Assembly (NCBI RefSeq): GCF_900496995.4
Contig: NC_044019.1
Location: forward strand, 1,364,001-1,428,000
Reading direction: 5' to 3'
DNA: 64,000 bases
From: Aquila chrysaetos chrysaetos
Lineage: Eukaryota; Chordata; Aves; Accipitriformes; Accipitridae
Every line of letters starts with the position of its first letter. The first letter of the stretch is position 1. Below are positions 35,100-46,630 of the stretch, in pieces. Below the pieces are notes generated by a model. It ran no database searches. It saw only the letters and a list, made by a program, of their open reading frames with translations, and was not told the origin of the DNA. Made by a program: the position numbers and the translations under genes.

Positions 35100-35105
35100 T
35101 TTATT
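35100..35105 (-). terminator. Polyadenylation signal of the GH3 gene
   Basis: A minus-strand AATAAA (TTTATT at 35100-35105) lies about 100 bases past the GH3 stop codon at 35206-35208, giving a very short 3' UTR. Confidence 0.8.
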
Positions 35106-35205: not shown

Positions 35206-38200
35206 CTAGCACCCACGCAGGGGCCGGGCTGCACCGGTGACGGTGAACCGTGCGCTCAGCACCTCCGAGGGCGCCCGCGTCTGCTGGCCTGGCTGTTGCC
35301 CGCCGGCAAAGAGGGTGAAGGTGCCGGGCTCGAGGCGCCAGTCCTGTGCCCAGACGGCACGCTGCTCGGCCGCCACCTGGAAGGACAGCTTGGTCTCCCG
35401 GCCGGCCGGCACGGCCACGCGGCGGAAAGCCACCAGCTGCCAGCGGGGCACCGGCACGGACGACTGCTCCCACCGCAGGTACAGCTGCACCACCTGCCCG
35501 GAGGGACGGGAGTCAGCGCTGACGGGACCCCCCAGCTGCCCCCCTGGCAGGGGGGACCCCGGCTGCAGCCGTACCCCCTACGGCCGCATCAGTGCGGAAC
35601 GGAGGCGCTCACCTCCTCGCCATCCCTCTGCCCCGTGTTCTCCAGCACCACGGACACGGAGAGGTTGGCACAGACGGGCAGCGCTGGGGGGCTCAGCACC
35701 AGGTCCCGGTACTGGAAGGTGGTGTAGGACAGCCCGTAGCCAAAGGGATAGAGCGGGGCCTCCTGCCCATAGTACCGGTACGTTCGCCCCTCCATGGTGT
35801 AGTTCTCCATCGGTGGCACCTGAGGGACGTCGGGCCGGTGGAGTTGGGGCAGGGCTGGGCAGGCATGGTCAAGGAGCAGCCCCACGTCCCACGGCTCCCT
35901 GGCCACCGAGGCAGGGAAGAGCTACGGGATCCGCCGGCTGCCCCGGCCGTACCTGGTGCATGCCTGCGGGCCACGTGGCCGGCAGCCTGCCGGCTGGGTT
36001 GGCCCCCACGTCGCCCAGCAGGACCCTCGCGATGGCGAGGCCGGTGGCCTGGGCGGGGAAGAAGCACGCCAGGATGGCCCCCACGCCCTCGTGCGCCTGC
36101 GCCCAGCTCACGTCCAGGGGCCCCGCATTGAACAGCAGCAGGATGACGGGGCGCCCGGCGGCTGCAGGGAGACAGCGGTCATCGAGACCCCGCACCAGCG
36201 CTGCTCAGACAGCTCCGGGGTGCCCCATGGATGGGGACCGCCTCGGGGGGTTGCGGTTCCCCTCCTTGCGCCTCAGCCCATCACCACCCGCTCTGGGCTG
36301 GCCCCGACCCCCAGGACACCAACCAGCCCCCAGGTGCCGGCACGCTGCCCTGGCCAGGAGCAGAGGCCCTACCCGCTTCCACGGCATCCTGCAGCAGCTC
36401 CAGCTGGTGGCCCGGCAGGGACAGGTCCCTCCGGTCCTTCGCCTCCGTCTCCACATCTGTCCCTGCGTGGGGACAGCCAAGGGACAGCCCCTTACACCCT
36501 GCCCGGGGCACCGCGGACAGATGGCGCAGAGGGGCACCGACCGCCTCGGGGGGCCGATGAGGACCCGTTCCTCTCCCAGAGCCGCCCCGGATCTGGGGTG
36601 CTCCCTCTCCCAGGCCATGCCCACCCAGCGCCTTCCCCGCTCCCACCTACCTGTCCCCAGGCAGACCACCACCACGTCGGCTGCCCCTGCTGCACCCACC
36701 ACCTCCGCCCGCGAGTACTGCTGGCACTGCGGCTCACGGCAGCCTGCCGCGAAGCTGACGTTGGCCGGCAGCGTCTCCAGCCCCCTCCTGCACCAGGAAA
36801 GAGCAGAAGGCATGGGGGCTGCTGTGCCCCAGGGTTGGGGCACCTTGGGGACACCCCCCCTTGCCCCAGACCCCCGTGAATGGTTGAGCAGCTCCAGCAG
36901 CAGACCCAGGCAGCGCCCAGGACCAGGGGATGGACGGCAGCACCATGCTGTCTCACCGGGGAGTGTAGATGTACCGCGGCTCCGGCACCGGCGCGTAGTC
37001 CCCGAACAGCACCCGGGGGTTGTCAGCGAAGGGACCCACCACCTGCGGAGGGCAGAGGGGTGAGGGTGGGCACCGGCAGCCCTGTGCTACGCAGCCTGCG
37101 GCTCTCGAAAGGAGGGGACACCTGCGGGCCCGGGGTACAGAGGCAGCAGCCCCTGGGTCACTGTGTCCCCCCTGCCCACCTCCGTGCGTGGGGCTCACCG
37201 CGAGGTGCTTGCCGGGCAGGTCCCGAGCCCGGAGGGGCAGCGTCCCCCGCGCGTTCTTCAGCAGCACAAAGCTCTTGACAGCAGCTTCCAACGAGAGGTT
37301 GCGGTGCTCGGGGCTCTGCACAGCGCTCAGGTCCAGGGCGCTGTAAGGGTTCATGGCCGGGGGGTCGAACTCCCCCAGCCGCATCCGTGTGTAGAAGAGG
37401 GGCCGGACCCGGTCACGCAGCATCTGCAAAGACCCCGACACCAAAACCTCGGTTGTGCTTGGCGGGGGCAGTGCTGGCTCTGTGCCCATGCCCTCGGCCC
37501 CATTTCCCCCGGCTCACCTGCAGCGTGATGTTGCCCATGGCCAGAGCCTGGGGGATGTGCATGAAGACGTTGTTCCTCATGCCATAGGAGAGCTCCAGGT
37601 TACAGCCGGCGTTCATCGAGGCTGCCGTGCCGGAGAGAAGGGAAACCGCCCGTCACGGCTGCGTGATGCCCGGGGACCCCGCGCCCGTCCCGCGAGCTCA
37701 CCGACCGCCGTCTCCAGGAAGGTGCGCGTGTAGTGGTGCCCCAGCATGATGAGCTCCAGGGCCCCCTCGTCGCTCACCACGTAGCCCTCGAACCCCCACT
37801 CGCCGCGCAGGATGTCCGTCAGCAGCTTCTTGTTGGCACAGGCGGGAACGCCGTTGATCCTGTCGGAAAGGGGATGGGGCAGCCCAGCCGGCCGGGCACC
37901 GGCCACCCCGCGGGCAGCCCAGCCCGCACGGCCCCCGCCACGCTCAGTACCTGTTGTAGCTGCACATGAAGCTGTAGGAGCCGGCGCGCACGCACGCCTG
38001 GAACTGGGGCAGGAAGGTGGTACGCCAGTCCCGCTCCAGCACCTGCAAGCGCCGCGGCAGAGAGGGGTCAGCGCCCGGGGGGCTGCCCGCCGTCCCGCGG
38101 CCCCGTTGCTCTCACCTTGGCGTCGAAGCTGAGCCTGGAGACGGGGATGTTCTCGGGGCCCCCGTGCACGCTGAAGTGCTTGCAGCCGGCGCTGGCCTTG

Positions 38201-39196
38201 ACGTAGCGGGGATGCTGGCCCTGCAGCCCCTGCACGAAGCTGCGGGCCAGCTCCCCGCTCAGGAACGGGTCCTCCCCGTAGGTCTCCTGGCCCAGGCGCA
38301 GGCGGGTCACCGCCGGGACCCCCAGACCCACACGCCCCCGCAGCCAGCACCCCAAGGAGCTGCTGCCACCCTCCGGCCGGTCGGCCACGGTCCTGCGTGG
38401 CCTGACCCCCCGCCCGGGGTCACCACCACTCCCCCCCCCATGCTGGCACCTGGTTCCTGCCCCACAGCGGGTGCCTCATGATGTTCAGGACGGGGCTGAA
38501 GCAGCTGAGCCCCGTGTGGTCACCGTAGCGGCCGGTGGCGGCGAAGTCGTTGTGCTTGGCTCTCACCTCGGTGGCGGTGGCGTTGGCCACCCGGTAGACG
38601 AGCTCTGGGCTGTGGAGGGTGGGGGGGAGCGCGGAGGCGTCGAGGCGGGGGGCGCAGGTCCGTCCCGCGGGACCACATCCCGCACCCCCGGGGTGCCCCG
38701 TCCCCGGTGCCGGTACCTGAAGGCGGCGGCGAGCCCCAGCGCCTGGGGGAAAGCCGTGGCCCAGCCGGGAGCCTCCGCGTCGCCCCGCAGGCACTCCGTG
38801 TTCCAGTTGTAGGGCCCGATGCCCAACCGGGGAACGGGGGGCGCGGGGCCGTTCCCCATCGCTCCCCCCCTCGCCACCTGCGGGCCAGCGGCGCTGAGCG
38901 GGCAGAGGAGGAACGGGGCGGGGGGGGGGGGGGTCCCGGGGCCGCCCCCTCACCTGCAGCACCAGCTCGGCGGGGCTCAGCCGGCCCAGCAGGTCGTCGA
39001 GGCGGCGGTGCCAGGGCAGCGCCGGGTCCTGGAAGGGGAAGCGGGGGAAGGGGGTGGGCTGAGCCCGCCCCGGTCCGGCGCCCAGCGCCGCGCACAGCAG
39101 CACGGCGGCGGCCCGGAGCCCCGCCAGAACCGGCACGGCCGCTCCCGGGGTCGCCGCTCTCCGCCGAGCGGGCGGGAGGGCTGCTGGGCGCGGCAT
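35206..39196 (-). CDS. Secreted glycoside hydrolase family 3 (beta-xylosidase-like)
   Basis: This gene is predicted to remove terminal beta-linked sugars in the secretory pathway or outside the cell; the true substrate is unknown. Fourteen exons (minus strand): 38954-39196, 38717-38877, 38450-38609, 38116-38286, 37951-38042, 37702-37859, 37518-37621, 37199-37423, 36957-37042, 36651-36787, 36373-36462, 35953-36161, 35613-35819, 35206-35493. All introns are GT-AG and all phases agree, giving 776 residues, the usual length for plant beta-xylosidases. Residues 19-45 form a likely signal peptide. The GH3 N-domain has GPYNWNTECLRG (Glu109), HPLWGRNQETYGEDPF, CKHF (Lys224-His225) and MCSYNRINGVPAC. 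The nucleophile is Asp306 in VVSDEG. The GH3 C-domain starts near SFVLLKN (residue 414) and has VETEAKDRRDL (Glu517/Glu519, acid/base candidates). A fibronectin-III-like domain ends the protein (VVQLYLRWEQ...). Several N-glycosylation sequons (NAT, NIT, NLS, NVS, NYT) support secretion. The ATG at 39194-39196 is the only upstream in-frame start. Confidence 0.93.
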
Positions 39197-39720
39197 GGCA
39201 CGGCTCGGTTCCCGGGATCAGCCGGGCCTCTCCCGTCCCGGCGCTCCGAGGCCACGGGCGATGGGCGCGGCGGGGCGGGGCGCGCTGCAGCTCGGCCCTG
39301 CGCCCGCCGGACGGGGCGGGACGGGACGGGACGGGACTCGGCGGGGGGGGGGGGGGGGGGTCCCGGGGCGGCGAGTCCCGGCCGGCGGCACCGGAGCACC
39401 GTGCAACGTGCAGCCAGGCCCTGGCTCCCGTCCCCTGGCTCCGCCGCGGTGGCAGGTCGCGGCGTTTCGCTTCCTCGCCCCCCCGCCCCCGAGCACCTCC
39501 CGGTGCGGGCACGTCTGTGAGCGGGAACCGGCAGAGCTGCCCGGTGCAGCCAAACCGGCTCCCGGGGTCACCCCGGCTGCAGCGGGGCTGCCCGCGGCTC
39601 CGATGCTGCCGGCAGCGGAGCTGGCAGGGCACGGCCCCCTGCTCGGGGCTGGGGGGCAGAAGGTGGCCCACTGCTGCTCCTGTCCCGCACCCGGGGCAAC
39701 GAGGGGAAAGGCCTTCACTA
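38600..39720 (-). promoter_or_regulatory. CpG island at the GH3 gene start
   Basis: Dense CpGs cover exon 1 and about 500 bases upstream. A GGGAC pentamer is repeated at about 39312-39336, followed by an 18-base G run at 39343-39360. No TATA box is evident near the start codon. This suggests broad CpG-type initiation between about 39.2 and 39.4 kb. Confidence 0.5.
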
Positions 39721-41600
39721 GCACGCTGTGCTTTAACGAGAGCCACGGAGCGTGAGTGACGCCAGCGCGGGTCCCCTCTGTGCCCCGCGGTGCCTGGTGG
39801 GATGCTGCCAGGGACCCTGGTGCAGTGACCGGGGACACAGTACCTCCGGTGGGCACCTGCAGACGGGAGCAGCCGCGGTGGCTGTGGTCACGCTCTCGGT
39901 GCCCGAGGCTGCAGGTCCTCCCGGCCGTGCCGCCCAAGTCCCACACTTGCAGCCTGGGGACACAGTGCGGGGCCGGGCGGTGGCTCCGGCGCGAGCACGC
40001 CGGCGGGGCTGTGGCCAGACCCAGCACGTGTCCCGCCGCCCGGCCAGGTGACTCCCCAGCCAGCGAGAGCCAGCGCTGCGTGACCCCGAGCAGCATGTGG
40101 TGGCTCGGGCAGCCCCCGGGCACACGGCGATGTTTGCTCTGTGGCTTTCCCCACACGGCCGCTCCCACGAGACAAACGGCATGGTGATGGCCAGGGTTTG
40201 GCTTGGCACCGGGCAGCCCGGGCCCGTAGAGACCTGTATCTCCACATGGGCAAGTTTGGTGGCCGCCTGGCTCAGGAGGCTCGTGCCCACTCCAGCATCG
40301 TGGCCGTGGCATTGTGTGCTGCATGCCGCAGGGTCTCCGCTGCCCCCACCTTCACGCTCCCCTGGATGTAGCTCTCCAGCTGGGAAATGCACAGGGGGCG
40401 AGGGGAGAGCACGAAACAGCCATTTGCCTGCCGGTGCTGGGGGCAGGAGGGGAGCCGGTGCTGGCAGACTGCTCCCCTGCGCTTTAGGGCTGGGAGATGG
40501 GGGAGCACAGACACCTCAGCATCTCGCTGGCACCATGTCCCGCTCCTGCCAGGGACGGTGGCGACGCTGGCAGTTCCCCAGCCCTGATCGCCCACGCCAA
40601 GAGCTGGTATCAGTCCTCGGGGCTCACAGCCTGCCAGCAGCCGAGCGAGCGCAGGCTGCGCCGTCCCGGGGACGTAGCCATGTAAGGCAATGCCAGCGAG
40701 TCGGCCGCAGCCGTCGAGAGCCCGGCCGGCCCCCACGCTCCCAGCACTGCTGCTCGGCAGTGATAGTGAGCGATCCCCCAGCTGCTGGATTCCTGAGCGG
40801 CCGGCGGGGGGGGGGGGGGGTCCCGCTAACGGCTCCCTCTGCGCCCACAGCATACCCTCCCACCCGCCACGCAGCCTCCATCGCACCGCACCGGCTGGAG
40901 CCACCCTTGAGCAGGGGTCAGCAGCCAGAACTCGCTCAGCGACACGTCTAGAATAGAGACGTAACTGAATAAATAAATAACGGCCAGGCAGTGTCCATCG
41001 GGGAGCAGAGGCTGGTGCTCGGGCGGCCGCACCGGCTGAGGAGGGTCTGTGGGAGCTCGGTGGTTCCAGTAAATATTTACTGCAGTCGCTCGGAGCCCCA
41101 GGCCAGGCTGACCCCTGTGACACCCCAGTCCTCCGCCACATTTCCCCGCGGCCGCATCTCTCAGGCGTGCGAGGCGTCGAAACCCTGCACCGACCAGCTC
41201 CCGTTCCCACACCGGGCCGCAGCCCGAGGCTCCGAGCTGGCCGGCCCTGCCCCGCCAGCCCAGGGCTTGCTCCGTCCGCCCCGGGGCGGGGGGAACGCCG
41301 GCTGCCCTCTCCCCAGGAACCAGCTCCGGCCAAGACACCAGGGCCAGCGGCTGGGCGGGGAAGGGGGCCCCCGCCAGCCCGGGGAACCTGACCCCGGGCA
41401 GGCCCTTTGGCGACAGCCCTTTCCGTGAGGAATTCCTCATCCAGCCAAAACCCCTCGTTGCCATCACCGGGGCTGGGGGGGGGGCCTCCGCAACAGCCGC
41501 CGGGTACCCGCGGGCCCGGGCCGGTGTCCCGCCTTCACCCGGGGCCGGTGGGAGGCAGCAGCGCCGCAGCCACCGGCCCCTCACCGGGCGGGCAGGGCTC
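39720..41600. other. Spacer between the GH3 gene and TRAPPC3
   Basis: Apart from the candidate exon at 40272-40379, this spacer holds no supported gene. It contains another G run at 40806-40820 followed by TCCC, the same junction seen after the G runs at 38920-38933 and 39343-39360. Confidence 0.5.
40272..40379 (-). CDS. Unassigned candidate terminal coding exon
   Basis: A strong minus-strand acceptor (a pyrimidine tract, then GTGCATTTCCCAG) precedes an open frame of 35 codons ending in TGA at 40272-40274. The frame starts LESYIQGSVK and ends MLEWARAS, an amphipathic helix-like composition. I do not recognise the protein. A divergent minus-strand transcript starting at the TRAPPC3 CpG island (donor candidate GGTCGCG|GTGAGC near 41.63 kb) could include it. 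It may also be chance. Confidence 0.25.
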   Translation of the reverse strand: MESYIQGSVKVGAAETLRHAAHNATATMLEWARAS

Positions 41601-41782
41601 ACCCGCCGCCGGCGGAAGCGCTCACCGCGACCCCGGGGGCGGACGGGCCCGGCCCCGGCGGAGAGACCGGCCCGGCGGGCGGAGGCGCCCCCTGCCGGCG
41701 CGGCGCACCCCCCCTCCCCTCCCCGCGCTTGGTTCCGCCCACCCCCGCGCCTGCCGGGAGCGGCGGTCAGGTGACCCGCCCC

Positions 41783-42039
41783 GCACGCCGGGATTTGTAG
41801 GCGCCCTACCGTCACGCCGGGAAGGGTAGTGCCGCCCCCCTCCCCGTCTCCCATGACAGCGCGCATGCGCGCAGGGCGGCCGCGTTGCACTCTGGGGCGC
41901 GTAGTTCGGCTTGGCGGGCGTGGCGTGGCCGGCGGCGCGGCGCGGACTACGAGTCCCGTCGTGCCCCAGCGGCGCGGCTCGGCTCGGCGCGGTGCGGGAG
42001 GCGGCCGGGCCGGGCCGGGGAACGAACGGGCCGGGCAGG
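41783..42039 (+). promoter_or_regulatory. TRAPPC3: TRAPPC3 promoter with NRF1 palindrome and ZNF143-like sites
   Basis: A CpG island covers the TRAPPC3 start. It holds an NRF1-type palindrome, GCGCATGCGC, at 41861-41870. It also holds three sequences resembling the ZNF143/THAP11 site (ACTACAxxTCCC...GC): 41783-41801 (minus), 41887-41905 (minus) and 41946-41964 (plus). There is no TATA box. Such promoters are typical of housekeeping genes and often fire in both directions. Confidence 0.6.

Positions 42040-46630
<4,591 letters not shown>

Follow-up and report, generated by a model that had tools for sequence, protein, structure and literature searches.

An intact GH3 gene with changed pocket residues in the genome of the eagle Aquila chrysaetos chrysaetos

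The genome of Aquila chrysaetos chrysaetos contains an intact, resident GH3 gene, whose predicted protein retains the catalytic set of the family and differs from most of its relatives at residues of the sugar pocket. The gene lies in a window of 64,000 nucleotides (the whole stretch of DNA analysed; assembly GCF_900496995.4, contig NC_044019.1, positions 1,364,001 to 1,428,000 of the forward strand), to which the coordinates given below refer. To judge from these residues and from its relatives, we consider it reasonably probable that this single-copy vertebrate gene encodes an active exo-beta-glycosidase of the secretory pathway, which descends from the xylosidase clade and probably has a broader subsite -1. 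Being intact and resident and carrying the full catalytic set, the gene, if expressed and if its product is active, represents a candidate vertebrate glycosidase; we know of no human counterpart. The changed pocket makes the substrate amenable to assay and points to a possible change of specificity inside GH3.

Gene structure and genomic setting

The coding sequence runs on the minus strand from 39196 to 35206 and is split into 14 exons that together comprise 2331 bases, i.e. 776 codons and the stop codon. All 13 introns (73-211 bp) have GT-AG borders, and their phases keep the reading frame. An in-frame stop at 39220 precedes the ATG by 7 codons, a G occupies position -3, and an AATAAA starts 101 nt 3' of the stop codon, at 35105. 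The GC content at third codon positions is 0.915. As far as the sequence tells, the gene is real and complete. A preliminary description of this DNA had proposed 14 phase-consistent exons encoding 776 residues at 39196-35206, and this gene model was reproduced. The features of the window considered here are as follows.

35206..39196, minus strand: coding span of the GH3 glycosidase, 776 aa (splice-consistent model; Pfam)
39196-38954, 38877-38717, 38609-38450, 38286-38116, minus strand: GH3 exons 1-4
38042-37951, 37859-37702, 37621-37518, 37423-37199, minus strand: GH3 exons 5-8
37042-36957, 36787-36651, 36462-36373, 36161-35953, minus strand: GH3 exons 9-12
35819-35613, 35493-35206, minus strand: GH3 exons 13-14
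38954..39196, minus strand: exon 1, with the start codon and a stretch that may be a signal peptide, its hydrophobic core spanning about residues 20-38
38717..38877, minus strand: exon 2, with N107 (at the xylose-selecting Trp position), R112 and the O4 contact E109 (alignments; roles from excerpts of PMC8913315)
37702..37859, minus strand: exon 6, with the nucleophile D306 and with E307 (a Cys position in relatives) (alignments)
36373..36462, minus strand: exon 11, with the acid/base E519 within the motif VETEAKDR (alignments)
35206..35819, minus strand: exons 13-14, with the Fn3-like domain (residues 681-747) and the protein end (gene model; Pfam)
35100..35105, minus strand: polyadenylation signal AATAAA, 101 nt past the GH3 stop codon
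16062..22761, minus strand: MAP7-family gene, exon-like fragments (Pfam MAP7 1.2e-18, five fragments joined by hand)
42040..46630, plus strand: TRAPPC3, from the start codon at 42040 to the stop codon at 46628-46630 (Pfam TRAPP 1.9e-44)

The assembly comprises 1,233,704,830 bases in 144 contigs, and the window occupies 1.36-1.43 Mb of a contig of 30.6 Mb. A search of the genome with the eagle protein yielded 14 matching stretches, all of which, among the best candidates scored, fell at one locus. This locus lies between a MAP7-family gene and a TRAPP-family gene, which we take to be MAP7D1 and TRAPPC3, respectively, and which presumably adjoin each other in human; the TRAPPC3 protein was pieced together manually, and a few of its residues at exon junctions were filled in from the known protein. 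Given that the sole locus in the genome is located between these two neighbours, the GH3 gene appears to be a resident vertebrate gene. The earlier suggestion of an intact gene at a vertebrate locus is thus borne out by the splice model, the Pfam matches, the single locus and the neighbours.

Sequence composition varies sharply within the window: 14001-42000 forms a block of about 67-76% GC, compared with 36-49% in the first 14 kb and 45-53% between 42 and 48 kb. A CpG-rich stretch coincides with the TRAPPC3 start (41500-42499; observed/expected 1.01 and 0.95), and a smaller one covers the GH3 start (39000-39499; observed/expected 0.91). The compact, GC-rich region with the GH3 gene is situated near one end of the mid-sized 30.6-Mb contig, and may reflect the fusion of a former microchromosome. 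Between the GH3 gene and TRAPPC3, the minus strand of 40275-41534 contains an open stretch of 420 codons, which ends in ...LESYIQGSVKVGAAETLRHAAHNATATMLEWARAS and has an acceptor-like site ahead of its last 35 codons. Its last 37 residues gave no Pfam match, and it may have arisen by chance in GC-rich DNA.

Domains and descent

Pfam assigned the GH3 N-terminal domain to residues 103-370 (9.8e-42; 143.9 bits, cut-off 27), the GH3_C domain to residues 416-644 (2.3e-44; 152.2 bits, cut-off 31) and an Fn3-like domain to residues 681-747 (8e-16, above the cut-off), scores that are far beyond chance and agree with the two GH3 domains and the C-terminal fibronectin-like domain reported before. Of 8 matching NCBIfam families, Xyl3A xylan 1,4-beta-xylosidase (NF041776) ranked on top with 492.9 bits, a score below the cut-off of 1250 for that family; the next families reached about 332 bits. 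Among solved structures, 88 distinct sequences matched the protein (E <= 0.001), and the top match within the best 60 of these 88 was PcBxl3 (7vc7, 7vc6), with 305 bits. A hydrophobic core spans residues 20-38, approximately, which fits the previously noted signal peptide as a putative one, and the protein contains six N-glycosylation sequons; together, the hydrophobic N-terminus and the sequons suggest the secretory pathway, and the protein is probably secreted or a component of that pathway.

The relationship to other GH3 proteins was evaluated in two alignments of 31 rows each. The first comprised the eagle protein, 28 bacterial proteins and, in part, two solved enzymes; for the second, six partial or distant rows were replaced by six closer ones, giving the eagle protein, 29 bacterial proteins and PcBxl3, and all residue counts given here are taken from it. 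In the second tree, the eagle protein and 22 further rows including PcBxl3 formed a clade with a support of 100/100, separate from 8 other GH3 rows, and in the first tree an 18-row clade likewise contained the eagle protein and PcBxl3 (support 100/98). Within the clade, the eagle protein was paired with PcBxl3 in the second tree (87/97), a pairing that involves long branches and was not resolved in the first tree. The eagle protein was flagged for a long branch in the first tree and for an odd letter make-up in both, and its end branch measured 1.41 in the second tree. These data support the view that the protein is, by descent, of the xylosidase type; within this clade, we know of a measured activity for PcBxl3 alone.

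Identity of the eagle protein to the 30 other rows was 31-39%, rising to 45% over shorter stretches. PcBxl3 shares about 35% identity with it over 599 aligned residues. The highest-scoring relatives found were bacterial GH3 proteins of the same clade (Bacteroidota, Planctomycetota and others, e.g. L044, L045, L019, L001 and L007), which are 34-39% identical to the eagle protein. In one phylum, 7 of the 148 genomes contained a match at 1e-110 or better. When a prokaryote collection was searched with six sequence patterns, 9 of the 19 stretches found encoded GH3 relatives. One of these patterns was a degenerate version of PYNWNTEC; it was absent from all 8 aligned relatives (8/8) among the 9 thus found. 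No stretch of the viral collection matched any of the six patterns.

The catalytic residues and the sugar pocket

According to excerpts of PMC8913315, D267 of PcBxl3 is the nucleophile and E470 a possible acid/base, E62 and K183 contact the sugar at O4, R143 and H184 at O3, and Y407 at its alpha-face. All of these residues have identical counterparts in the eagle protein: E62, R143, K183 and H184 align with E109, R186, K224 and H225, and D267, Y407 and E470 with D306, Y454 and E519. The catalytic Asp, the acid/base Glu and the Lys-His pair of the GH3 family (D306, E519, K224-H225) are thus all present, as are the subsite -1 contacts of xylosidases to O4 (E109), to O3 (R186 and H225) and to the alpha-face (Y454). 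As the residues with which D306, E519, E109, K224, R186 and H225 align have these roles in PcBxl3, catalysis and the grip on O3 and O4 appear to be kept. The nucleophile and the Lys-His pair had been named correctly in the preliminary description; of the two Glu residues that it offered as acid/base, E519 and not E517 lies in the column of E470. D306, R186, K224, H225 and E519 are identical in all 31 rows of the alignment, and E109, Y274 and Y454 in all 23 rows of the clade.

Other positions of the pocket have changed. Excerpts of the same source (PMC8913315) place W60 of PcBxl3 near C5 of the sugar and credit it with a part in excluding C6, and describe one disulfide and one methionine at the beta-face. 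In the alignments, the column of Trp60 holds N107 in the eagle protein; the Cys following the nucleophile is replaced by E307, and the Cys that ends the AGxDxxC motif by L339. We assigned the cysteines of the pocket disulfide to columns 307 and 339 from the alignment, as they are not numbered in the excerpts of PMC8913315, and their identity as the disulfide is to be read as such an alignment-based assignment. Column 307 is Cys in 22 of the 23 clade rows, the eagle protein being the only exception, and column 339 in 20 of 23, the exceptions being the eagle protein, L001 and L007. At column 107, 16 of the 23 clade rows have W, two have Y, three G and one Q, and the eagle protein is the single row with N. 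His at column 112 is found in 21 of 23 rows, with Arg in the eagle protein and Cys in L037. N107, E307 and L339 may be private to the eagle species or may mark a whole animal lineage.

Loss of the Trp is no proof of a new specificity, and the Trp seems dispensable for some members, since 7zb3, which is named a beta-xylosidase, carries His at the Trp position of PcBxl3, and 6 of the 22 other clade rows likewise lack the Trp. N336 occupies a position that is commonly Asp; we do not take it for a mark of decay, since N, S or T occurs at this position in 8 of the 22 other clade rows too. L001 and L007, both Planctomycetota GH3 proteins, have YNLG in place of YNWW and lack the second presumed pocket Cys, and represent a further lineage within the clade whose pocket has changed.

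The eagle protein has the GH3 layout in common with the fungal GH3 beta-xylosidases PcBxl3 (7VC6/7VC7) and TrXyl3A (5AE6/5A7M), the latter compared by its published description only. Shared with both are the nucleophile Asp, the acid/base Glu, the O3 and O4 contacts and the alpha-face Tyr, and with PcBxl3 also a Phe (F129, corresponding to eagle F172). In contrast, the xylose-selecting Trp of the two fungal enzymes (Trp60 and Trp87, respectively) is Asn107 in the eagle protein, the fungal Cys residues after the nucleophile and in AGxDxxC are Glu307 and Leu339, and the His of the fungal EALHG motif is Arg112. The protein also differs from the 21 bacterial rows of the clade, which at column 107 have W (15), Y (2), G (3) or Q (1) and never N, and at column 307 have Cys in 21 of 21 cases. 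The earlier label of a beta-xylosidase-like gene thus holds with regard to descent, as indicated by the tree and by PcBxl3 as best solved match, and not with regard to the xylose-selecting Trp and the presumed pocket cysteines. Their replacement, unremarked before, makes it less likely that the enzyme is a strict xylosidase.

Proposed function and alternatives

We propose that the eagle enzyme would act by the two-step retaining mechanism, in which D306 would attack the anomeric carbon and E519 would serve as acid/base, and that E109, R186, K224 and H225 would grip the sugar at the non-reducing end by O3 and O4, as in PcBxl3. N107 takes the place of the C6-blocking Trp, and E307 and L339 that of the two cysteines presumed to lie beneath the ring; given these replacements, sugars other than, or besides, xylose are probably accepted. 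The enzyme may remove beta-linked sugars from the ends of host or dietary glycosides, either in lysosomes or extracellularly, in a role that would lie outside any xylan-digesting set of the animal's own. An intron-blind profile search of the genome for such partners gave no match for GH10, GH11 or GH43, whereas the same searches gave matches for GH10 in 4, GH11 in 1 and GH43 in 5 of 14 control genomes. Given that the Pfam GH3 model recovered only one exon of the eagle GH3 gene in an intron-blind search of this kind, the missing xylanase genes are weak evidence, and the result speaks only weakly against an endogenous xylan-digesting set.

A strict beta-xylosidase (or xylosidase/arabinosidase), which would complete the breakdown of xylo-oligosaccharides that gut microbes release from food and in which other residues offset the missing Trp, would agree with the fully supported clade shared with PcBxl3 (100/100), with the top NCBIfam score for Xyl3A, with PcBxl3 as best solved match (among the best 60 of 88) and with the equally Trp-less 7zb3. 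We nevertheless regard it as unlikely, considering that 492.9 bits is far under the Xyl3A cut-off of 1250, that the Trp and both presumed pocket cysteines are replaced, and, with the little weight of an intron-blind search, that GH10, GH11 and GH43 gave no match. Judged by its residues, the enzyme is more likely to have a beta-glycosidase activity that is broader or of another kind than to be strictly a xylosidase. Xylosidase-type ancestry, the hydrophobic N-terminus and the six sequons would suit a lysosomal or extracellular enzyme for xylose-bearing glycans of the host, for instance for the beta-xylose that remains on serine once glycosaminoglycans have been broken down, and vertebrates do make Xyl-Ser linkages. 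This explanation appears improbable to us, as no feature of the sequence indicates a peptide-linked substrate and mammals, to our knowledge, degrade proteoglycans without a GH3 enzyme. Excerpts of PMC6017418 name no such vertebrate enzyme.

The unusual N107, R112, E307 and L339 at mostly conserved positions, together with the long end branch, could also indicate an enzyme that is catalytically dead or a relic, kept for another role or drifting. A frame open over 776 codons and 14 exons, intact splice sites and polyadenylation signal, and the retained catalytic and sugar-contact residues make this highly improbable. To contamination, a recent transfer from bacteria or a faulty assembly we give next to no credence: the closest sequences in the non-animal collections searched are microbial, but the gene has 13 GT-AG introns, lies inside a 30.6-Mb contig between the MAP7-family gene and TRAPPC3, and is only 31-39% identical to the 30 other alignment rows. 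As an extension of the broader exo-beta-glycosidase that we favour, it is conceivable, and we put it forward tentatively, that an ancient vertebrate GH3 gene between MAP7D1 and TRAPPC3 was lost in mammals, and that a change of Trp to Asn, together with loss of the disulfide, turned the xylosidase pocket of its product into one for a host or dietary glycoside that bears C6 and is outside the range of the known vertebrate hydrolases.

Animal GH3 genes have been published before, and the eagle gene is a variant of that theme. The consulted parts of PMC6017418, PMC1382263 and PMC6555040 contain no mention of a vertebrate GH3 enzyme. Among the papers listed by searches of the open literature, we recognised no description of a vertebrate GH3 gene, which leaves absence unproven. 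Automated annotation in RefSeq may already include proteins named 'probable beta-D-xylosidase' for fish, amphibians or birds. Excerpts of PMC6011409 deal with GH3 homologues in animals, regard a bacterial or fungal origin of these as likely, and set sea urchin and ascidian against human and mouse with their markedly reduced sets of cellulase families; human and mouse are the vertebrates named there, and the animal GH3 genes of that study are known to us by description. In the hepatopancreas of the snail Pomacea, transcript contigs are listed as 'probable beta-D-xylosidase', according to excerpts of PMC5322654.
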